Shown: positions 5,426 through 28,358 of the stretch, piece after piece
Layout of the letters: each line of letters begins with the position of its first letter
How positions within the stretch are numbered: the first letter of the stretch is position 1
Assembly (NCBI GenBank): GCA_021789155.1
Contig: JAJYJW010000004.1
Span: 1-47,296, forward strand
DNA: 47,296 nucleotides
Direction: 5' to 3'
Origin: Microcaldota archaeon
Lineage (GTDB): Archaea; Micrarchaeota; Micrarchaeia; Micrarchaeales; CABMGC01
Position numbers and translations under genes: made by a program
The notes under the pieces: model-generated
Told to the model about the DNA's origin: nothing
What the model saw: only the letters and a program-made list of their open reading frames with translations
Databases searched by the model: none

Positions 5426-6277
5426 ATGCTGCAAAACAAGGAGCACAAAACCGTGAATTTTTATTCTGAAACTATAGAGTTCATAAAAGCAATGAGAACG
5501 GAGAAAGAGCAGCAGGAAAAAGAGAATACAGAAACAAAGAAAGAGAGCGATGATCCGGTTTATTCCACATTCTTCGAAAAAGCGTATGATAAGTATGCCA
5601 AATATGTGGGGGTAATGCTGGATGAGTTGAACTCAGAAAAAGAGTACACAGGATATTCAGTATTTGATGACGATCCTTTGTCCTACTCGTTCAACGTACT
5701 GCTTTGCATGATGGACGAAGTTACTGGTAATGTTGAAAACCCACCTGCAGGTCTACCCCTGGATACCTGTCGAAAAATGTTCGATTACTTTGGCGACGCT
5801 GCAAGACATAGTGAATCGCAAATACGTGCGTTCTATAGATTTTTAAACTTGCTTGGAGAAACAAAGATTTCAGATGATTTCACAGAAAAGATGACGTCAT
5901 ATCTTAATTACATGCTTAATGGAGTGTATTTAAGTGCCAAGGACAGGCTCACAAGCATGGATAACGGAGAGCTTGCCTGGGATGACAGATTAGCCGCGAT
6001 ATTGGAAAATACCGTATTGAATTTGCAGGCAACGAAAAACTTGCTATCGAAAAGGAAAGAACGAGATACCGGAGAATTGAACGCAAATGATCTGAATGAT
6101 ATCACTCTCACTTTGCTTATATCGATCAACATTGAATTCGCGATATACGAAAAGCTGGTTGCAAGAACATTGCAGGATAGTTCAGATGCATTGGTTTCGC
6201 CAAAAACAAACGAAGGAGAAGACAAAAACCTCCCAAATAAAACAAACTGGGAGGATAGAAACTTCATTTATTTATGA
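5426..6277 (+). CDS. Predicted helical cytoplasmic protein, unknown
   Basis: This 283-aa protein is not recognised. It has no signal peptide or membrane segment, is rich in Glu/Lys/Asn, and looks largely helical with a charged linker at about residues 24-42. A TATA-like GTTTATATTA about 45 bases upstream suggests its own promoter. Base composition is more AT-rich than in the topA/trmI genes before it, like the coiled-coil genes at 35-38.5 kb. It converges on the membrane protein gene at 6.3 kb with almost no gap. Confidence 0.75.
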   Translation: MLQNKEHKTVNFYSETIEFIKAMRTEKEQQEKENTETKKESDDPVYSTFFEKAYDKYAKYVGVMLDELNSEKEYTGYSVFDDDPLSYSFNVLLCMMDEVTGNVENPPAGLPLDTCRKMFDYFGDAARHSESQIRAFYRFLNLLGETKISDDFTEKMTSYLNYMLNGVYLSAKDRLTSMDNGELAWDDRLAAILENTVLNLQATKNLLSKRKERDTGELNANDLNDITLTLLISINIEFAIYEKLVARTLQDSSDALVSPKTNEGEDKNLPNKTNWEDRNFIYL

Positions 6278-6279
6278 GA

Positions 6280-6894
6280 TTACGCCATAAGGTGCTCTAT
6301 TGCCGCTGGCGCTCCGGTAATTGCAGATGCTAGCGCTGCTATTGCCATGAAAATGCACAAAGCCACGAATATCGCCTTTGCGTACCTCATGCCAGATAAC
6401 TTTTTCCCTGAGAGGAGCATATCCAAATACCTGCTTGCTGGCAGCATCGTTATGCCCACCATTCCAAATGCTACGTATATTATCAGGAGCATTATCGGAT
6501 ATGTGGTCATTCCGAGCATGTAACCCACTATTCCATAGAATATCGACATTGCACCTATTAGCGCGCTGAACAGGCCTGCAGGTTCTGTCTTCATTCCCTT
6601 GTAAAGAGCATATCCTATTGCAGCCAAGCTAAACCCGAACAATGGATACATATCATAGAACAGTATGTTGTAATTGCCTGGGAGAGGCCACACGAACTGA
6701 CCGTAAAGACCGCTAAGTATGCCATAAATGCCGAGTACGAACAGAACCATGCCCACGCTTGGAAGTGTTGCTTTCAACAAAGGCAATTTGCTGTGGTATT
6801 TGTATATTTTGTAAAGAGCGTACAGACCTATTACTCCAACAAATGACATAACGAAAAGCTGTGCTGTTAGGAAATCTACGAATTGCATCGTCAC
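6280..6894 (-). CDS. Six-TM membrane protein resembling DUF981
   Basis: This 204-aa protein has about six hydrophobic helices. The segment WPLPGNYNILFYDMYPLFGFS after the second helix pair recalls the archaeal DUF981 family as I remember it; this is not verified. Function is unknown. Two start codons are possible: GTG at 6894 with GTGAT three bases upstream, or ATG at 6888. It is divergent from the TFB gene. Confidence 0.72.
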   Translation of the reverse strand: MTMQFVDFLTAQLFVMSFVGVIGLYALYKIYKYHSKLPLLKATLPSVGMVLFVLGIYGILSGLYGQFVWPLPGNYNILFYDMYPLFGFSLAAIGYALYKGMKTEPAGLFSALIGAMSIFYGIVGYMLGMTTYPIMLLIIYVAFGMVGITMLPASRYLDMLLSGKKLSGMRYAKAIFVALCIFMAIAALASAITGAPAAIEHLMA

Positions 6895-7078
6895 GTTATC
6901 ACTAACTTTAATGAAACCTTATAAAATATAAGCGTTTGAATTCAGCTTGGAATAAGTCAGCGCAATAGAAAGCTTTAAATATCTTATTATACATTTATTT
7001 AGTACTGATTTTAAGTAAGATTTAAAAGATTAACTGGTGTTTTTCAGACGAAACAGAGTTTATGTTCAATGTGATATA

Positions 7079-8137
7079 ATGGCAGAAAAAAAGAGACAAT
7101 CAAAAAGCAAGCCATCGAAGCCAAAAGCAAGTAGATCAGCAGTCGAAAGCCCAAGCCATGAGTTTGCTGCGCCTACGGAACGCGAACAACGCGAAGCTAC
7201 GGTAGAACGACAGGATAGACGTGCTACTGACATAATGAAGAGGTGCACTAGCTGCGGAAGCATGGATCTCATATTCGACAGCGAAAAAGGAGAACTGGTG
7301 TGCAACAACTGCGGTCTGGTTATAGAAGAGAACGTTGCTGATACTGGCCCAGAATGGCGTGCATTCGATTCGGACCAACGCAATTCAAGAGCAAGAACCG
7401 GAGCACCTATAAAGTACATGAAGCCAAACAAGGGACTTGTCACCGAAATAGACATGTATAATAGAGACATTAGGGGAGCGAGGCTACCTTCAAAGAGGCA
7501 AGCACAGCTTTACCGTATGAGAAAATGGCACAAGAGGGCAAGCATAGCGAGCTCAAGCGAGAGAAACTACCTAATAGCATTGCCAGAACTCAACAGAGTA
7601 GCAAGCTATCTTGGACTTCCTGACAATATCAGGGAAAGCGCGGCATTGCTCTATAGGCAGTGTGTCAAGAACAACCTCATAAGAGGCAGACCTATCGAGA
7701 CTGTGGTAAATGCGGCACTTTATGCAACGTGCAGAAATGCAGGCATGCCAAGAACACTTGACGAAATAGCGCAGATATCTGGAGTTCCGAAGAAGGAAAT
7801 AGGGAGAGCATACAGAGTAATATCTCACGAACTAGGACTCAAGATACCATTGACTGACCCTGCAAGCTACGTACCTAGATACATAGCGTCGTTGAAGCTA
7901 AGCGGAGAAGCACAGGAACGTGCCGTACTCCTGCTCAAGCAGGCAATGAAGAAAGGATTGGTTAGCGGAAGGAGCCCAACCGGGGTCAGCGCGGCTGCAG
8001 TTTACATTGCTGGAGCGCTTGTCGGGGAACGCAGAACCCAGAAGGAAGTTGCTGATGTAGCTGGAGTTACTGAAGTAACCATAAGAAACAGGTACAGGGA
8101 GCTCAAGGAAGAATTGAATCTTGACGTAAACCTCTAA
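7079..8137 (+). CDS. tfb: Transcription initiation factor IIB
   Basis: This 352-aa TFB bridges TBP-bound DNA and RNA polymerase. An N-terminal basic extension of about 50 residues precedes the zinc ribbon (CTSCGS and CNNCGL; C56, C59, C75, C78). The B-reader/linker region follows with GPEWRAFD, then two cyclin-like repeats: one from about residue 150 (RNYLIALPELNRVASYLGLP), one from about 245 (DPASYVPRYIASLKL), ending with a helix-turn-helix that would read the BRE (TQKEVADVAGVTEVTIRNRYREL). The ATG at 7079 has GTGAT three bases upstream; the reading frame stays open 14 codons further up. The long Lys/Ser-rich N-terminus is unusual. Confidence 0.97.
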   Translation: MAEKKRQSKSKPSKPKASRSAVESPSHEFAAPTEREQREATVERQDRRATDIMKRCTSCGSMDLIFDSEKGELVCNNCGLVIEENVADTGPEWRAFDSDQRNSRARTGAPIKYMKPNKGLVTEIDMYNRDIRGARLPSKRQAQLYRMRKWHKRASIASSSERNYLIALPELNRVASYLGLPDNIRESAALLYRQCVKNNLIRGRPIETVVNAALYATCRNAGMPRTLDEIAQISGVPKKEIGRAYRVISHELGLKIPLTDPASYVPRYIASLKLSGEAQERAVLLLKQAMKKGLVSGRSPTGVSAAAVYIAGALVGERRTQKEVADVAGVTEVTIRNRYRELKEELNLDVNL

Positions 8138-8657: not shown

Positions 8658-10685
8658 ATGGAAACGCTTAAGACGGTTAAAGTCGTGCTTGACGAAGCAG
8701 GCATGGAAAAGCTCGTAGTTGATCAGCTTAAGAAAGACCAAATGGCAATATTAAAGGAGATAGTCGTAAACTCTCTTGACTCTTTTGCGAATTCACCGAC
8801 TAATACACACAATACTGATAACAAAATAACCATAACGATAAGCGACAATTCAATAACATTCGAGGACAATGGGCCGGGAATGTTGCCTGAATTTTTCAGC
8901 GAGAATAGCGATAATGGATTCAGGAACATGGGTTATGATTTCCATAAAAACGCCGCAGAAGGCACCATAGGGGGGTTTGGCATGGGTAGGTTCAGCCTGT
9001 TTGCCCCAATAGCGCACAAAATTTACGGATCGGTCAAGTATGATGGATGGGTCGAAATAATAAGCTCATCTAAAAATGAAAACGATAAAATAGAAACTAC
9101 CCGCGTAGAATGGCGAAAAATAAACGAATTTACGCCACATGCAGTTCAAGACGATCTTGCGGTAACAGGAACGAAAATCATTTTACATTTCAATGATGGC
9201 GTAAAAAGCGACTTACTCGAAATGCATTCAGTCGTTACCTATCTAGACAATGTATTATACGATCCGAAAGTAGAGATATTGGTAAAAAACCCGAAAGTGA
9301 GCATGCACGTAAATGGCGCTAAGGTTGAAAGTCCTGTAACCACATCATGCGTCTTTGAAGTTGACAACAGAAACAGATGGATACCCGAGATTCCTAACGA
9401 TCGTGTAAAAATACATGCAGAATTTGAAAGCGGAACCTCCTTTGAAAAGACAAGCAACTTTATCATAAGGGATAGCATAGGTTTATTCTTCAACGGAGTT
9501 CGCGTATGCAGCCTTACCCAATATGACGTACCATTTAGCGGCATACTCAACCTCACCTCCGCAAGCATAAATGGCAACGTGCTTAACTCATACACGCTTC
9601 TCGAACCGCAGAGAAATTCAGTGAAGCTCGACAAAAAAGAATTGCTAAAGATATATGCAAAGGATGCTCTACTACCAGTATTGAAGACAATGCAGAAATC
9701 AACCAGACTAAACAGCCAAGTGGAGAATTTCCTTCATGAAAGCGGTTTATGCGACTCTGAACCCTTAGATGCTTTAGCGCTTGAATTTGCGGAAGTGCTG
9801 TCTTTTGATGGAGTGTCATTGCGCGAGCTATTAGATCTTGAAAGATGTGGTGAATCAAATGGCGATCGACGCAAGCTAGTTTATACTGACGTATATTCAC
9901 ACATATCAGACGAAGATTCAGCAAACTACAGGATAGTCAAACTAGATGGTGAAGGAATCAAAATTGCAAAGGCGCTTGGAATACGTTTCCTTGAAGATGT
10001 CAGAAAGGAGGACATGCCAATAACAAGGATATATGCCCCTAGATTAGGCAGCGTTGAAAACAAAATGGTGGAGTACGCTGCGGGCTATTTCAGCAATAGC
10101 CTGATCCCGTCGCTATTCTATGGCAAGTATATGCTCAACGACAAGCTCGACGTTGAAATGCGCAACTTCGCCACCTTTGCGCTTAATAAGCTTGCCTTAA
10201 TACCTGTATTTAGCAGCGCCAGGGAAGAGTTCGACAAACAGAAAATCAAAGCAGAATCGCAGTACGTCACTCTTGCAACAGTCAACGAGATAAAGGCAAA
10301 TGTAGATATAGTACAGAGCAGCGTGGACATTAGAGCTACATATGAAATAAATTTCGGAATGTTTGAGTACCAAGGCAACAAGAACGACAAAGTAGTTGCA
10401 CTGTCAATACTGCAAAACATCTTATTCAATAGTTCAAGCAACGTAATCGGATCCATAATTCTGAGAAGTGCGCTAAGCGAGGTTGAACCTATAGTTGTTC
10501 ACGAGTTTGCGCACGTAATTTCAAATACAATTCATACCGAATCGCATGGGGAAGTATGGGGCACGGCATATACCAATTTATTGATGTTGCTGAAGAGAAG
10601 CGAAAACATGACCGAATCGGAACGCGAAGAGATTAAAAGCAGGATGAGAACAATAAGGCTAACGCATGATCCTGATGATCTGTAA
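8658..10685 (+). CDS. GHKL ATPase fused to a zincin-like metallopeptidase motif
   Basis: This 675-aa protein has an N-terminal GHKL (Hsp90/MutL/MORC-type) ATP-binding domain. The N-box is KEIVVNSLDS (E34, N38, D41), the G1 box is EDNGPGM (D70-G74) and the G2 box is GGFGMGRFS (105-113). The middle is unassigned. Near the C-terminus it has VVHEFAHVIS (H615, E616, H619) followed by SHGEVWG (H630). HExxH with a later HGxxW resembles SprT/minigluzincin zinc sites. The ATG is preceded by GTGAGCTC. It is a single gene convergent with aIF6. I recognise no named family. The likely picture is an ATP-driven conformational switch coupled to a protease or metal site; that is inference. Confidence 0.8.
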   Translation: METLKTVKVVLDEAGMEKLVVDQLKKDQMAILKEIVVNSLDSFANSPTNTHNTDNKITITISDNSITFEDNGPGMLPEFFSENSDNGFRNMGYDFHKNAAEGTIGGFGMGRFSLFAPIAHKIYGSVKYDGWVEIISSSKNENDKIETTRVEWRKINEFTPHAVQDDLAVTGTKIILHFNDGVKSDLLEMHSVVTYLDNVLYDPKVEILVKNPKVSMHVNGAKVESPVTTSCVFEVDNRNRWIPEIPNDRVKIHAEFESGTSFEKTSNFIIRDSIGLFFNGVRVCSLTQYDVPFSGILNLTSASINGNVLNSYTLLEPQRNSVKLDKKELLKIYAKDALLPVLKTMQKSTRLNSQVENFLHESGLCDSEPLDALALEFAEVLSFDGVSLRELLDLERCGESNGDRRKLVYTDVYSHISDEDSANYRIVKLDGEGIKIAKALGIRFLEDVRKEDMPITRIYAPRLGSVENKMVEYAAGYFSNSLIPSLFYGKYMLNDKLDVEMRNFATFALNKLALIPVFSSAREEFDKQKIKAESQYVTLATVNEIKANVDIVQSSVDIRATYEINFGMFEYQGNKNDKVVALSILQNILFNSSSNVIGSIILRSALSEVEPIVVHEFAHVISNTIHTESHGEVWGTAYTNLLMLLKRSENMTESEREEIKSRMRTIRLTHDPDDL

Positions 10686-12878: not shown

Positions 12879-13793
12879 ATGTCTGATAAGATGCGCTTGA
12901 GGCTCCAGTCCGCAATGGAATACCTGATGACCTACGGGTGGGCGATATTGATCATAGCCGTAGTATTAGGTGCGTTATTCCAACTCGGCATTTTCAACGC
13001 TTCTACTTTCACGCCGAAGGCTCCGCCTGGTGCATGCCATGTTTTCAGACCGAACGGCCCGGGAACAACCTCATTCATCAACTTGCAGGGGATTTGCAAC
13101 GGCGAACTGCCTCAGTATGTTGGCGTATTTTCTGGATCAAGTTACATTAAGATTCCAGCTTCAACTTCTTTGTCAAGCCCGTTTGCCAACGGAAAAATAA
13201 CTATAACAGTATGGATTAACGTAAACCAGTTTACCACAGCATCGGTATTGGATTATGGAAGCGTTCAAGGCGGCGCCTATTGCACACCTGCATACATAAG
13301 CATTTACAACAAACAGATATTGGGCGGTATCCAACAGCAAAACATCGGGGATTTCTCTCCTGCAGCTCCGATAGGCACAATATCGTTGCAAAACTGGTAT
13401 TTCGCTTCATTCAACCTTACTACCGGAGTAGGGGGAAGTACAGGTTCTGATGGATCCCTTAATTCTGCACCTTCCGCTCTGACGCTGGATGCACAATCCA
13501 ACATAGGCCCGTTGTTCATAGGATCGGGAGTATGCGGAACAACGAATCCTACAGCAAACCCGTTTTATGGCAAGATAGCCAACGTGCAGATTTACAACAC
13601 CACTTTATCTTCAAATGAGATAGTTGGACTTTACAATGAGGGGATAGGCGGGGCGCCTGTAAAACTCAGCAATCTCGTTGGTTGGTGGCCGCTGAACGGC
13701 GATGCGAAGGACTATTCCGGAAACAATAACAACGGAGTTCCAACTGCAGTATCTTTTACAAGCAGCTGGGAATCGGGTTATTCTGCACCGTGA
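12879..13793 (+). CDS. Pilin-like LamG surface protein (copy B)
   Basis: This 304-aa member of the five-copy family has a class III-type N-terminus (LQSAMEYLMTYGWAIL), a constant region to CNGELPQYVGVF and a variable LamG-like core. That core contains YIKIPAS, ITVWINV, ASFNLTTG, LFIGSG, IANVQIYNTTLSSNEIVGLYNEG and a pair of Cys codons near GVCG. It ends with the constant LVGWWPLNGDAKDYSGNNNN block and WESGYSAP. Copy C follows only 7 bases after its stop, so they form one operon. A TATA-like AATTTATAAG at 12854-12863 would place +1 near 12884, which would favour the ATG at 12891; another TATA-like element at about 12806-12819 fits the ATG at 12879. Confidence 0.85.
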   Translation: MSDKMRLRLQSAMEYLMTYGWAILIIAVVLGALFQLGIFNASTFTPKAPPGACHVFRPNGPGTTSFINLQGICNGELPQYVGVFSGSSYIKIPASTSLSSPFANGKITITVWINVNQFTTASVLDYGSVQGGAYCTPAYISIYNKQILGGIQQQNIGDFSPAAPIGTISLQNWYFASFNLTTGVGGSTGSDGSLNSAPSALTLDAQSNIGPLFIGSGVCGTTNPTANPFYGKIANVQIYNTTLSSNEIVGLYNEGIGGAPVKLSNLVGWWPLNGDAKDYSGNNNNGVPTAVSFTSSWESGYSAP

Positions 13794-13800
13794 TGATAAT

Positions 13801-14661
13801 ATGAAATTCAAGCTTCAAAGCGCAATGGAATATCTCATGACCTACGGGTGGGCGATACTCATCATCGCGGTTGTTTTGGGTGCGTTATTCCAACTCGGCA
13901 TTTTCAACGCTTCGACTTTTAGTCCTAAGGCACCTCCAGGGGCATGCCAGGTATTTCGACCGAATGGCCCAGGTACGACTTCATTCATCAATCTTGAGGG
14001 AGTATGCAACGGCGAACTTCCCCAATACGTTGGAGTATTCAACGGGCAAACGAGCAACATATCATTTAGTCAGACGAGCGGATTTCCGCAGACTACTCAG
14101 AAGGATATTTCTGCTTTTGCGTGGATTCGTGAGAATCCCGGAGCGCCAAGCTATCCAGACATATTCGCCATAGGATATGGGCAGATAAACACGTATTCCG
14201 TTTCGACAAACGTATACGAACCTAGGATGTGCACGGCAAATGGTTGCTGGCAGGATCCGAGTCTTCAATATTCTGCAAACCAATGGGTAATGATAGGCTT
14301 TACTTACAATTCGACTACCCATGTTGCGGTAAGTTACATGAACGGCGTTGCTGGAACTCCGCAATCTTTGGCTACCCCTAACCCTCAAGCAACTTACGCT
14401 TTTATCGGAGGTGGATCGGTATACTTTTTCAGCGGATACCTGGCAAACATCCAGTGGTATAACGTTTCTCTTACGGCCAATGAGGTGAAAGCGTTATACA
14501 ACGAGGGGATAGGCGGGGCGCCAGTAGTATTACGCAGTATACAAGGATGGTGGCCTTTGAATGGCGATGCGAAGGACTATTCTGGCAACAATAATCACGG
14601 CAAGGTAATACGCGCGGTTAGCTTTACCAGTAGCTGGGAATCTAGTTACTCTGCGCCTTGA
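13801..14661 (+). CDS. Pilin-like LamG surface protein (copy C)
   Basis: This 286-aa member of the family begins MKFKLQSAMEYLMTYGW. The ATG at 13801 follows GTGATGATAAT; the longer frame upstream lies inside copy B and is rejected. The variable core includes ISAFAWIRENPG, WVMIGFTYNS, YMNGVAGTP, AFIGGGSVYFFSGYLANIQWYNVSL and NEVKALYNEG. Cysteines in MCTANGC suggest a disulphide. The constant C-terminal block is PLNGDAKDYSGNNNHG, ending SSYSAP. Several DNA stretches at both ends are identical to copy B. Confidence 0.85.
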   Translation: MKFKLQSAMEYLMTYGWAILIIAVVLGALFQLGIFNASTFSPKAPPGACQVFRPNGPGTTSFINLEGVCNGELPQYVGVFNGQTSNISFSQTSGFPQTTQKDISAFAWIRENPGAPSYPDIFAIGYGQINTYSVSTNVYEPRMCTANGCWQDPSLQYSANQWVMIGFTYNSTTHVAVSYMNGVAGTPQSLATPNPQATYAFIGGGSVYFFSGYLANIQWYNVSLTANEVKALYNEGIGGAPVVLRSIQGWWPLNGDAKDYSGNNNHGKVIRAVSFTSSWESSYSAP

Positions 14662-19544: not shown

Positions 19545-20981
19545 TCACGCATGCCATATCCACGGCAACGCGTTTATTACCAAAGCGAGTATTGCAATGC
19601 TTCCAAGCAAACGCAGATTCTTCTTGCTCATCACGGATCCATAAATCCTGAAGCCGTCAAATCCAGGTATTGGAAGAAGATTCACTACCGCTATCAGGAA
19701 GCTTAAAAGAAATGAGAGCGCCGCAACAGAATACGCGAAATAACCTGTTCCAGAAAGAATTCCCTGCTTTGGAAAGCTTTGTTCATTCACGTAAACCCCT
19801 ATTTTCCCGGCTGCATTTGATATCAACGAGAAAGTTCCCTTGTTTGTCACGACACTAATATTGTTGAACGGCTTGTCCAGACCCGCTACACCTACAAAGC
19901 TGCTTATGTTGCTTATCTTAACGCCTTGCCATTCCAAGATTGTAGATCCTACGGGTATGGTATTGTACGCTGGGGAGTTAGCCTCAACGGCAGTTACAAC
20001 TACGCTTTGAGTCATTATGCTTGGGATTACGTACAGCGCGAAAAACATCATGACAACGAAGAACAGCATTGCAGTAAGCATGTTTGCCGAAACGCCTGCT
20101 ATGAATATTCTGTTGCTAAGATCCTTCTTCAGCTTCTTCACTTTTTTCTCCTCTGGTTCTACGAATGCGCCTATAGGTATTAATCCGAAAACCAAAAGTC
20201 CGACCCTCTTTATTTTTATCCTTGCTACCCTGGCAAGAATGCCATGCGAGAATTCATGCACTACTAGAATAAGGGCCAATGCTATCACCCCTGCGGCCAA
20301 AGGTATGTTTATGCCGGGGATTATCGGTGCCACTCCGGGCGCTTGCGATGCTATAATACCGTAATTTGGAGTGCTCTGGACTGCGCTTGCGGCGAATGCA
20401 GCTATTGAATATAGTATGCTCCACGAACTGTAAACCAACGTTGCTGCAATGAACCCCGCGAACCCTCCAATTACTGCTATCGCAGTCAATGCATATGCTG
20501 CGATGTTTATGCCGGTTGCCTGCTGTCCTGAAACGCTTCCGGAGCTTGTCTGTGGCAGGTTTATGAAACTGAACGCAAGGTAAGAAAACGGAAGCATTAT
20601 GTAAAGAACGAAAAGTATAGACACTATTCCGATGATTACCGTCTTCTTAGATATATTTTTGAAAAAGTATTTTGCGACCGCGCCGAATCCTATTACCATT
20701 CCCCAGTCAGCTAACGCGTTCCACAGCTTTGGATGCGAATCCGCTATTTTGTATATTGTAGATATGCCTTTCTTGCTGCTTAGCAAGTATGCGCCGAACA
20801 TGCTTTCTGCATTGATGCTTCTCGCAGTGTATTTGCTCAACGCATACAAGACCAATATAGTAAGCGATGCTTTCCACAGATAGCTTATTCCAGAGTAAAG
20901 CAATGCGCCAATCACCATTAGCGACACCGCCATTATCGCAACGAGAGCCACGTTTTTCGCAGAGAATGCACGCTTATCCAT
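19545..20981 (-). CDS. Site-2 protease-like M50 metalloprotease
   Basis: This roughly 478-aa polytopic membrane protease has the zinc site VVHEFSHG (H243, E244, H247, counted from one codon upstream) and the third ligand in NLLPIPGFDG (D443). Between them lies a PDZ-like domain (AVEANSPAYNTIPVGSTILEWQG). The N-terminal third contains extra hydrophobic helices. It would cleave membrane-bound substrates within the bilayer. The substrate is unknown. The ATG at 20981 is preceded by GATGATTT; a TTG one codon earlier is possible. Confidence 0.92.
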   Translation of the reverse strand: MDKRAFSAKNVALVAIMAVSLMVIGALLYSGISYLWKASLTILVLYALSKYTARSINAESMFGAYLLSSKKGISTIYKIADSHPKLWNALADWGMVIGFGAVAKYFFKNISKKTVIIGIVSILFVLYIMLPFSYLAFSFINLPQTSSGSVSGQQATGINIAAYALTAIAVIGGFAGFIAATLVYSSWSILYSIAAFAASAVQSTPNYGIIASQAPGVAPIIPGINIPLAAGVIALALILVVHEFSHGILARVARIKIKRVGLLVFGLIPIGAFVEPEEKKVKKLKKDLSNRIFIAGVSANMLTAMLFFVVMMFFALYVIPSIMTQSVVVTAVEANSPAYNTIPVGSTILEWQGVKISNISSFVGVAGLDKPFNNISVVTNKGTFSLISNAAGKIGVYVNEQSFPKQGILSGTGYFAYSVAALSFLLSFLIAVVNLLPIPGFDGFRIYGSVMSKKNLRLLGSIAILALVINALPWIWHA

Positions 20982-21086
20982 CAAATCATCTTAGTATGAC
21001 AAGACAAGAAATAAAAAAGACCCATGTTAATGCTTTGAATGCAAGCTTTATTTATTGTTGCAATTGAAACTAATATTGGTGTTTGA

Positions 21087-25989: not shown

Positions 25990-26595
25990 ATGTTACTCTC
26001 TTCTCTAATACTCGTCTTTCAGATAATTGTGAATTTTGTTTTTGCCATATTTGGAGCTTACTATTGTGGATTGAATATAGGTGCTGCAAGGAAGAATAAG
26101 ATTAAACCTGGCATAAGTACGGCATTATCTTATGTCTCTCTCGGAATGTCTTTCTTCATCATGGCATACGTTATTGCAACTGTAATATCATATATGCTGT
26201 TCTACCTTAACTATATACCCTATGCCTCGTTCGTATTCGCAACGAGTTTTTCATTCCTCGTTTTCGGACTGATGATAATAACTTTTGGTCTTCCCCTCGC
26301 AATCAACGCAGTATTAGTGTATAAAGAGCATAAGAACGTATCAACAGCATTCGGTGCTTTCATATCTGTTGCTTTCGAGGTACTGAACATCTATAAATAC
26401 GTGCAAGGGTTCAAAGATGCACGCTCTGCATTAAAGATGAGCAATGAATGGGGCAGCAAATACGGGATAGAAATTATAATTTCTGCGTTTCTTGCGGCGT
26501 TTGTATTGATATATGTCAATTATAAGAGAGGCATAAACGATGCACTTGATGGACGCCTAGCTCAAGGTAAACAAAATGTTCAGGGAGGAGTATAA
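25990..26595 (+). CDS. Polytopic membrane protein, paralogue 2
   Basis: This roughly 201-aa membrane protein is a diverged copy of the previous gene. Corresponding positions include GLNIGAARKN, MAYVIATVISYM, FLVFGLMIITFGL, AFEVLNIYKYVQGFK and the terminal helix. The ATG at 25990 has GTGAT three bases upstream; an upstream TTG is rejected. Its last 16 bases overlap the 3' end of convergent LamG copy D. Confidence 0.75.
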   Translation: MLLSSLILVFQIIVNFVFAIFGAYYCGLNIGAARKNKIKPGISTALSYVSLGMSFFIMAYVIATVISYMLFYLNYIPYASFVFATSFSFLVFGLMIITFGLPLAINAVLVYKEHKNVSTAFGAFISVAFEVLNIYKYVQGFKDARSALKMSNEWGSKYGIEIIISAFLAAFVLIYVNYKRGINDALDGRLAQGKQNVQGGV

Positions 26596-27464
26596 TCCGA
26601 TGCCCAATTATTTGTAAATGATATGCTAGTTGGAACTCCGTTGTTATTGTTTCCAGAGTAGTCCTTCGCATCCCCATTCAGAGGCCACCACCCTACAAGA
26701 TTATTGAGCTGAACTGGTGCACCGCCAATGCCTTCATTATACAATGCGCTTATCTCGTTCGCGGATAAAGACGCATTGTAGAATTGCAGGTTAGACATGT
26801 ATGTTCTTACGTTGCCCGCATTCCTGAACACGTAGAAACTACCCACTCCAGAATAGGTTATGCCTCCAGCAGTAGTGGAAGATATGTATTTGCCATTGAA
26901 GTATGCTGAAACTAAATTGCCATCGAATGTAGCCACGAAATGGCTCCAACTGCCTGCTTTGTATGTGCCAGTACCTATGTTCTCGTAGTGCTCTATTCCT
27001 GCGTTCCCTACGGTTATTCCAGGCGTTGCAGGATCAGGGGCGTACCCAAGAAGAACCTGATAACCTTGAACATAGCTCGAATATACGCCAATTGCTCCAG
27101 GGTACCCTCCACCAGATACCATACTTGTTTGATAAAACCAAAGACTTATGGTAAATTTAGAAGGTTCAAGTGCTGCTATTGGGGTTACGGTTATTGCTGC
27201 AGAAGTAGATGTTGCCTCCATTACGTATTGGGGAAGTTCGCCATTGCAAATTCCTTCTAAGTTCAAGAACGACGTTGTATATGGACCGTTTGGCCTAAAT
27301 ACCTGACATGAACCTGGAGGCGCCTTAGGTGTAAATGTAGATGCGTTGAAGATTCCGAGCTGAAACAAAGCGCCCAATACTACAGCAATGATCAATATCG
27401 CCCAGCCATAGGTCATCAGGTATTCCATCGCGGACTGAAGCTTGTTTCTTTCCCTAGCCATCAT
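26580..27464 (-). CDS. Pilin-like LamG surface protein (copy D)
   Basis: This 294-aa protein is the second gene of a minus-strand pair with copy E, 24 bases behind it. It has the constant N-terminus LQSAMEYLMTYGWAIL, then PKAPPGSCQVFRPNGPY. The LamG-like core has FTISLWFYQT, GSWSHFVATFDGNLVSAYF, NGKYISST and MSNLQFYNASLSANEISALYNEG. The constant C-terminal block is WWPLNGDAKDYSGNNNNG, but the end is ASDYTPP instead of ESGYSAP, making it the most diverged copy. Confidence 0.85.
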   Translation of the reverse strand: MMARERNKLQSAMEYLMTYGWAILIIAVVLGALFQLGIFNASTFTPKAPPGSCQVFRPNGPYTTSFLNLEGICNGELPQYVMEATSTSAAITVTPIAALEPSKFTISLWFYQTSMVSGGGYPGAIGVYSSYVQGYQVLLGYAPDPATPGITVGNAGIEHYENIGTGTYKAGSWSHFVATFDGNLVSAYFNGKYISSTTAGGITYSGVGSFYVFRNAGNVRTYMSNLQFYNASLSANEISALYNEGIGGAPVQLNNLVGWWPLNGDAKDYSGNNNNGVPTSISFTNNWASDYTPP

Positions 27465-27488: not shown

Positions 27489-28358
27489 TTAAGGTGCGGA
27501 ATAACCCGATTCCCAGTTACTCGTAAATGTTATGCCTGATGCAGCCCCGTTATAGTTATTGCCGGAATAGTCTTTCGTGTCTCCGTTTAGAGGCCACCAA
27601 CCAACGAGATTGTTGAGCTTAATTGGCGCACCTCCTATTCCTTCGTTGTGCAACGCACTTATCTCGTTTGAAGTCAATGTGGTATTGTAGAATTGTATGT
27701 TCGATATGCTGCCATCGAAGTAGTTTGTTCCTCCGCCACCTATCATGCCCGTGCTGGTGCCCTGTATTTTTGGTATGATTGCAAGAGAAGACGTGCTACA
27801 TGTAGAATCAAGGCAAACTGTTATGCCTCCGGTCCCGCCGACAAGGGAAACGACCGCGAAGTGCCATGCGTTGTCAGCAGCGTTTATTATTATAGGGTAA
27901 CCGTTCCCGCCAGAGTCGAAGTAAACGTCGCCATCGTAAACTCCCATAATCACGGTATTTGCACTTCCGCTGCCGTAGCTTAACAGGTATGGATAAACCT
28001 GCTTTTGGGTTGTTCTAAACCATGCAGTTATAGTTAGCGAATTAGTCCCTATGGGAAAATTTGATGATGGTATCGATATTGAAGTTTTTGAGGGATTGCT
28101 AAATAACGCAACATACTGCGGCAATTCCCCGTTGCAGATTCCCTGAGTATTTATAAACGAGGTAGTTCCTGGGCCGTTTGGCCTGAACACATGGCATGCG
28201 CCTGGGGGCGCCTTTGGAGTAAAGGTAGATGCGTTGAAAATTCCGAGCTGAAACAGTGCTCCGAGGACTACTGCTATTATGAGGATTGCCCACCCGTAGG
28301 TCATGAGGTATTCCATCGCGGACTGTAAAGTAAGTGATTCTTCGGAATGCTTGACCAT
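27489..28358 (-). CDS. Pilin-like LamG surface protein (copy E)
   Basis: This 289-aa protein is the first gene of the D/E pair. The N-terminus MVKHSEESLT precedes the shared LQSAMEYLMTYGW. The constant region matches copy A (FINTQGICNGELPQY). The variable LamG-like core contains LTITAWFRT, WHFAVVSLVGG, VCLDSTCSTS, a probable disulphide, and SISNIQFYNTTLTSNEISALHNEG. The ending is WWPLNGDTKDYSGNNYNG and WESGYSAP. It is divergent from the padR operon, with 137 bases between them. Confidence 0.85.
   Translation of the reverse strand: MVKHSEESLTLQSAMEYLMTYGWAILIIAVVLGALFQLGIFNASTFTPKAPPGACHVFRPNGPGTTSFINTQGICNGELPQYVALFSNPSKTSISIPSSNFPIGTNSLTITAWFRTTQKQVYPYLLSYGSGSANTVIMGVYDGDVYFDSGGNGYPIIINAADNAWHFAVVSLVGGTGGITVCLDSTCSTSSLAIIPKIQGTSTGMIGGGGTNYFDGSISNIQFYNTTLTSNEISALHNEGIGGAPIKLNNLVGWWPLNGDTKDYSGNNYNGAASGITFTSNWESGYSAP

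Follow-up and report, generated by a model that had tools for sequence, protein, structure and literature searches.

The window analysed here, 47,296 nucleotides of a contig from the 0.8-Mb genome of an archaeon of the Micrarchaeota, carries on its forward strand, at 8658–10685, a gene that joins a GHKL ATPase domain to a minigluzincin-type domain in one chain. The gene has an ATG start and one intact frame of 675 amino acids, and translation confirmed every motif named in the original prediction (N38, D70, the GGFGMG of G105–G110, HEFAH and HGEVW). It occurs in single copy in the host genome, where the only other match to the Pfam model HATPase_c_3 lies at C6:19103-19378, inside a 543-residue frame. 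The N-terminal domain (approximately residues 1–225; 8658–9332, +), a Bergerat-fold ATPase by Pfam, Foldseek and profile matches to TRAP1 and HtpG, holds the N box EIVVN at residues 34–38 (8757–8771, +), with N38 and with E34 at the catalytic-base position of GHKL enzymes, the G1 box DNGPG at residues 70–74 (8865–8879, +) and the G2 box GGFGMG at residues 105–110 (8970–8987, +). It is followed by a middle region (approximately residues 226–544; 9333–10289, +) that, by the family profile A4, resembles an Hsp90-type middle or transducer region at least in its first part, and by a C-terminal domain (approximately residues 545–647; 10290–10598, +) assigned to the SprT/WLM/minigluzincin type of zinc peptidase from a profile of 30 sequences and from predicted helices. 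Here, HEFAH at residues 615–619 (10500–10514, +) includes the putative metal ligands H615 and H619 together with E616, and HGEVW at residues 630–634 (10545–10559, +) provides a putative third ligand, H630, and a near-invariant aromatic position, 634. The translated chain has no cysteine beyond the peptidase motif and hence no cysteine zinc finger of the SPRTN type.

Elsewhere in the window, five paralogous pilin-like proteins are encoded at 170–1063 (−), 12879–13793 (+), 13702–14661 (+), 26580–27464 (−) and 27489–28358 (−). Their N-terminal segments are near-identical (LQSAMEYLMTYGWAILIIAVVLGALFQLGIFN...) and their C-terminal ends are shared (GGAPVKLNNLVGWWPLNGDAKDYSGNN), while the middles are strongly variable and LamG-like by eye; the five look like a diversified adhesin set. 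The frame at 19545–20984 (−) encodes a membrane protein in which HEFSH is followed by NLLPIPGFDG, an arrangement that is site-2-protease-like by eye.

Of 301 related Micrarchaeota genomes searched with profiles, three have the fusion gene and one more has a distant version. The relative in G008 (protein P0006), the sole homologue among 60 relatives searched, aligns with the window protein over its full length (BLASTP 2e-21, 22% identity) and has HEYVH...HDEAF at the same place; the third carrier, G177, was found by the search of the phylum and has HEFAH...HGDDF. With A4, an alignment of 19 full-length sequences at 16–25% identity to the window protein, only these three Micrarchaeota members gave strong full-length matches (4e-92, 8e-83 and 2e-95), scores that are high by construction since all three are in the profile. 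No further genome joined, and the remaining matches in the phylum were mostly N-terminal, from other GHKL proteins lacking HExxH. In G297, two GHKL genes lie in tandem (L139, 3151–6976), and only the second carries the zinc-peptidase end. Its product, of 701 amino acids, has a degenerate G1 box and the end HEYAH...HDHMSHYSNFY, and its C-terminus matches an HMM of the plasmid and viral C-terminal domains at 8.7e-10, an arrangement that suggests a two-subunit version of the fusion. In the tree, the three Micrarchaeota proteins fall into a single clade (99/94) with long branches. The window gene adjoins aIF6, and no GHKL gene was found at the aIF6 loci of 24 relatives, most of which retain the gene order from S19e to aIF6. 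Given these loci and the patchy distribution, the Micrarchaeota gene is read as acquired, not vertically inherited. No DNA-transfer genes lie beside the Micrarchaeota copies.

Beyond the phylum, the family was reached by way of plasmids, as a plasmid search with the G008 protein led to proteins of the same layout from Deinococcus ficus and from haloarchaeal plasmids. The fusion is carried by plasmids of haloarchaea, Deinococcus and Proteobacteria. The Deinococcus query matches 188 plasmid records (89 from Acinetobacter, 50 from Pseudomonas and 21 from Xanthomonas), in which the gene is usually annotated merely as an "ATP-binding protein" and 91 of which are predicted to be conjugative, and the haloarchaeal query matches 16 plasmid records over at least 80%. 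Virus searches with the window protein or the Micrarchaeota profiles returned no member; reached through the plasmid relatives, the viral collection holds 25 loci with a relative, on contigs classed as viral and up to 479 kb in length. A very long branch of the tree leads to L064 and L065, which may represent an independent fusion.

Several candidates from these searches were set aside. Two "phage" matches from human faeces proved by eye to be bacterial HtpG. A Fibrobacteres locus with tandem GHKL genes (L020, 5860–9676), the second bearing a degenerate HELTM in place of HExxH, was excluded from the family, as were two bacterial GHKL genes (L021, 5908–8814, and L022, 5611–8547) with what is by eye a transglutaminase-like (papain-fold) domain. 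The L022 gene sits beside a second GHKL gene. L021 and L022 raise the possibility that the joining of a GHKL domain to a domain of peptidase type is a design that recurs.

Reading of 38 distinct full-length relatives (4 from Micrarchaeota, 15 from plasmids and 19 from the viral collection) showed that 37 keep both the ATPase and the metal site. The invariant columns of A4 are M1, E34, N38, D70, G72, G74, G105, G171, G306, H615, E616, H619 and H630. In A6, an alignment of the C-terminal domain of the window protein with those of 29 relatives, the H, E, H and H of the metal site are the sole invariant columns; a glycine and the aromatic position are conserved in at least 90%, with F at position 634 in at least 90% of the relatives and W in the window protein. 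The SprT-like feature of HExxH with a third histidine in HGxx(W/F) is present, and the trio singled out earlier, H615, H619 and H630, is invariant in all 30 sequences. The chance expectation is about 0.03 for a bare HExxH in a protein of the window protein's composition and about 0.0006 when another histidine is required at one set distance from it. Chance occurrence is ruled out by these low expectations and by the recurrence of the site at an unchanged position at 16–25% identity, and the combination of GHKL boxes and HExxH...H in the window gene is, judging from its sequence, not accidental. HExxH was absent from the other GHKL frames checked in the Micrarchaeota genomes matched by the same profile. 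The original prediction had counted against itself any relative that lost HExxH while keeping the rest, and 1 of the 38 is of this kind. It is L062 (viral contig, 6004–7896), which aligns to the family profile across 439 residues (1e-105) and retains the GHKL and middle regions without HExxH. Since it nests in the tree within a phage clade whose members keep the motif, it reads as one secondary loss, a natural peptidase-minus variant.

Profile searches support the original assignment of the N-terminal domain to the GHKL superfamily and refine its kinship. HATPase_c_3 matches residues 32–125 of the window protein at 2.4e-6, above the curated cut-off, and the A4 profile, searched against PDB sequences, finds TRAP1 (8.6e-10) and HtpG (1.3e-8), then MutL, topoisomerase VI B and MORC2, so that Hsp90 scores above the MutL and MORC named earlier. 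The alignments to TRAP1 and HtpG run past the N domain into the middle; the MutL and MORC chains align at the ATPase end only, and no MutL/MORC C-terminal domain was found. NCBIfam models of the Hsp90 type match weakly, and only a few of the 19 members, and an hhalign comparison of alignments A2 and A3 gave 99% probability over the N plus middle regions. Neither was an Hsp90 C-terminal dimerisation domain found, the C-terminal region matching zinc peptidases only among PDB sequences. The Pfam SprT-like model matches the whole window protein weakly at residues 606–641 (0.1) and its C-terminal domain alone at 0.011, with 16 bits against a gathering score of 25.6 (PF10263). The A6 profile has six PDB matches at E ≤10, all to SPRTN, WLM/Wss1 or archaeal minigluzincins and ranging from 0.0053 (SPRTN) through 0.0077 (proabylysin) to 1.0 (projannalysin), a result that supports the family, as A6 holds 29 relatives beside the window domain. 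A profile restricted to plasmid and viral sequences has collinear matches in P0001, P0006 and P0007, one to the GHKL part and one to the C-terminal part (the latter at 0.078, 0.0026 and 0.0056, respectively); in the decoy GHKL proteins HtpG, ParaMORC3, RIIA and topoisomerase VI B, it matched nothing at the position of HExxH. Used by itself, the C-terminal HMM scores the window protein weakly (0.16), its link to that protein running through P0006 and P0007.

The AlphaFold2 model of the window protein has a mean pLDDT of 49.9, with mostly 60–88 in the GHKL domain, about 60–77 at residues 561–640 and less than 50 in the middle. At this level of confidence, the C-terminal domain is modelled as strands, a helix (606–621) with HExxH and then H630 ahead of a helix (632–646), a predicted helix order that is the one expected of minigluzincins. 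Foldseek matches the GHKL domain to the N domains of TRAP1 and HtpG. The model of a phage relative, L063 (553 amino acids, with E483 in the place of E616), is the best of the family, reaching a pLDDT of 81.2; it matches TRAP1 at 9e-16, with RIIA proteins among its top viral folds, and its predicted secondary structure also agrees with the zincin order.

The genes beside the fusion vary, and no universal partner was found across the neighbourhoods read. On two pPT23A-like plasmids, of Pseudomonas syringae and P. cerasi, type IV secretion genes up to virB11 are followed by small genes, the fusion gene and a VirD4-type coupling protein, past which lie TrbM/KikA and a topoisomerase IA, with ssb further along in P. 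syringae. A MOBP plasmid of Photobacterium has the order ssb, topoisomerase 3, fusion gene and LPD7-domain protein, and in one phage clade an NAD-dependent DNA ligase and a phage-type terminase are encoded near the fusion gene. Two diverged Acinetobacter plasmids have an M48 peptidase gene immediately upstream (L104, 7099–7839; L105, 7111–7851), and their M48 proteins are 68% identical, compared with 38% for the GHKL proteins. The copy on the plasmid of A. baumannii ATCC 17978 bears the annotation EAE94_RS18890. Other plasmid neighbours include restriction-type, DUF262 and PAPS-reductase-like genes.

As the original prediction had it, no named family covers this architecture in Pfam, NCBIfam or PHROGs, searched with the window protein and its relatives, or in PADLOC, searched with the window protein. 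The window protein matches none of the RIIA families of PHROGs, and only phrog_6203 (unknown function), by its N-terminal part. Hsp90 proteins such as TRAP1 and HtpG share with the fusion the GHKL N domain and, judging from profile and predicted fold, some or all of the middle domain, but overall identity is 10–20% and the fusion has a zinc-peptidase domain in place of the C-terminal dimerisation domain. The DNA-protein crosslink proteases SPRTN (SprT-like) and Wss1 (WLM) share the HExxH motif with a later H(G/D)xx(F/W), and the predicted helix order; unlike them, the fusion scores below the Pfam gathering threshold, lacks a zinc finger behind its peptidase domain and is joined to a GHKL ATPase. 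The archaeal minigluzincins proabylysin and projannalysin resemble it, by profile, in their minimal HExxH scaffold, yet they are short chains of 105–112 residues without an ATPase. ParaMORC and MutL-type proteins have the N, G1 and G2 boxes in common with the fusion but no peptidase domain, and ParaMORC3 of phage PhiR44_1 lacks HExxH. RIIA and RIIA-like proteins, as in phage T4, have a GHKL N-terminal domain and are among the nearest viral folds, but HExxH occurs in none of the four full-length proteins read and their C-terminal domain is unrelated by sequence. Phage RIIA was accordingly rejected as the parent family, since it matches at the N-terminus only and its C-terminal halves lack HExxH. 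FtsH likewise combines an ATPase and an HExxH zinc protease in one chain, though with an AAA+ ring engine and a membrane anchor instead of a GHKL clamp. Finally, ArdC, encoded by plasmid R388, also ends in a metalloprotease domain of the SPRTN-like kind, but its N-terminal part is a single-stranded DNA-binding domain, not an ATPase (PMC7213743). Open-licence PMC papers yielded no description of a GHKL domain fused to a SprT/HExxH zinc protease. The domains are known; within what was searched, neither the fusion family nor its spread appears to have been described.

The evidence thus upholds the original claim that a single chain combines a GHKL ATPase with a zinc-peptidase domain of the SprT/Wss1 type, a unit kept across mobile elements and archaea. 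Our best guess, held at about even confidence from the sequences, is that the gene encodes an ATP-gated clamp protease. By its fold class, the Hsp90-like GHKL domain would bind ATP, dimerise and shut the chain as a clamp, which ATP hydrolysis, predicted solely from the conserved catalytic glutamate E34, would open again. The SprT/minigluzincin domain, taking the place of the Hsp90 dimerisation domain, would cut the polypeptide in the clamp, with zinc presumably held by H615, H619 and H630 and with E616 as the probable base, as their conservation suggests. The likeliest targets, to go by the neighbourhoods, would be proteins bound to or covalently stuck on the DNA of the carrier element, cleaved during conjugation, replication or entry; that the substrates are DNA-bound proteins is suggested by this context and remains doubtful. 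The Micrarchaeota copy would be a lone gene of this kind, gained by acquisition. More broadly, and as a tentative proposal, the fusion may represent a distinct class of energy-dependent proteases, with a GHKL clamp of the Hsp90 type instead of an AAA+ ring to feed the SprT-like zinc protease; conjugative plasmids and giant phages would use it to strip proteins from their DNA, and some archaea would have acquired it. The ATP-gated clamp protease would fit the Hsp90-like N and middle regions, the SprT-class C-terminal domain and the joint retention of both sites; the DNA context (conjugation operon, topoisomerases, ligase and terminase) is counted for DNA-bound targets, and the M48 neighbour for proteolysis. 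Against it stand the sub-gathering SprT-like score, the low mean pLDDT of the window model, L062 without HExxH, the varied neighbourhoods and the lack of DNA-transfer genes beside the Micrarchaeota copies. The precedent of ArdC also counts against it: antirestriction by this protein can dispense with its metalloprotease activity (PMC7213743), so that a peptidase fold may be conserved for some task other than proteolysis.

Alternatively, the clamp itself could be the working part, the GHKL domain being an anti-defence or DNA-clamping device of the RIIA or ParaMORC type and the zinc domain structural, DNA-contacting or self-processing. Such a role would suit the nearest viral folds, those of RIIA proteins, which are described as GHKL proteins of counter-defence whose C-terminal domains vary (PMC7824862), and the absence of HExxH from L062. 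The dispensable metalloprotease activity of ArdC (PMC7213743) speaks for it as well. Nevertheless, the metal site is the best-conserved part of the C-terminal domain, and since its four ligand and base residues are the sole invariant columns among 30 diverged sequences, a purely structural zinc domain is unlikely; the reading as a whole is unlikely too, if worth weighing. At the other extreme, a merely coincidental HExxH and HGEVW with no metal site, for which the sub-threshold Pfam score and low-confidence model might be cited, is scarcely credible, as the conservation of the site in 37 of 38 relatives effectively refutes it and the profile matches are to SPRTN and minigluzincins only.

Two other roles accept the proteolysis. 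The GHKL domain could sense an invader or damage and free promiscuous proteolysis that stops growth, as in a defence or abortive-infection effector. The distribution is patchy, some plasmid copies lie near restriction-type and DUF262 genes, and the N-terminal part weakly resembles the restriction-associated GHKL protein BbrUII; yet the window protein has no PADLOC match, one member lies within a conjugation operon and not a defence island, and the gene is frequent on large phage contigs, where a suicidal effector is less expected, all of which leaves this role quite improbable. A regulatory protease like ImmA/IrrE, in which the ATPase picks one partner (a repressor, relaxase or coupling protein) for a single cut by the zinc domain, also seems improbable. 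Zinc peptidases of this class do include single-cut regulators of mobile elements, and the fusion gene adjoins that of the coupling protein on the Pseudomonas plasmids, but the family shows no conserved partner gene, and we know of no need of Hsp90-type engines for single cuts.

With the ATP-gated clamp protease as the preferred reading, the fusion may constitute an undescribed class of ATP-driven protease, a possibility that arises as the same unnamed fusion is also found on plasmids and giant-phage contigs. It is a common unannotated gene, present in 188 plasmid records, mostly of Acinetobacter and Pseudomonas, and on 25 viral contigs, and since it lies within a conjugation operon, a part in DNA transfer could be probed directly by deleting it. 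To our knowledge, all ATP-dependent proteases are built on AAA+ engines. A conserved fusion of GHKL and zincin domains, if a true protease, would be a different engine design, and one that links Hsp90-type clamps to the proteases of DNA-protein repair.
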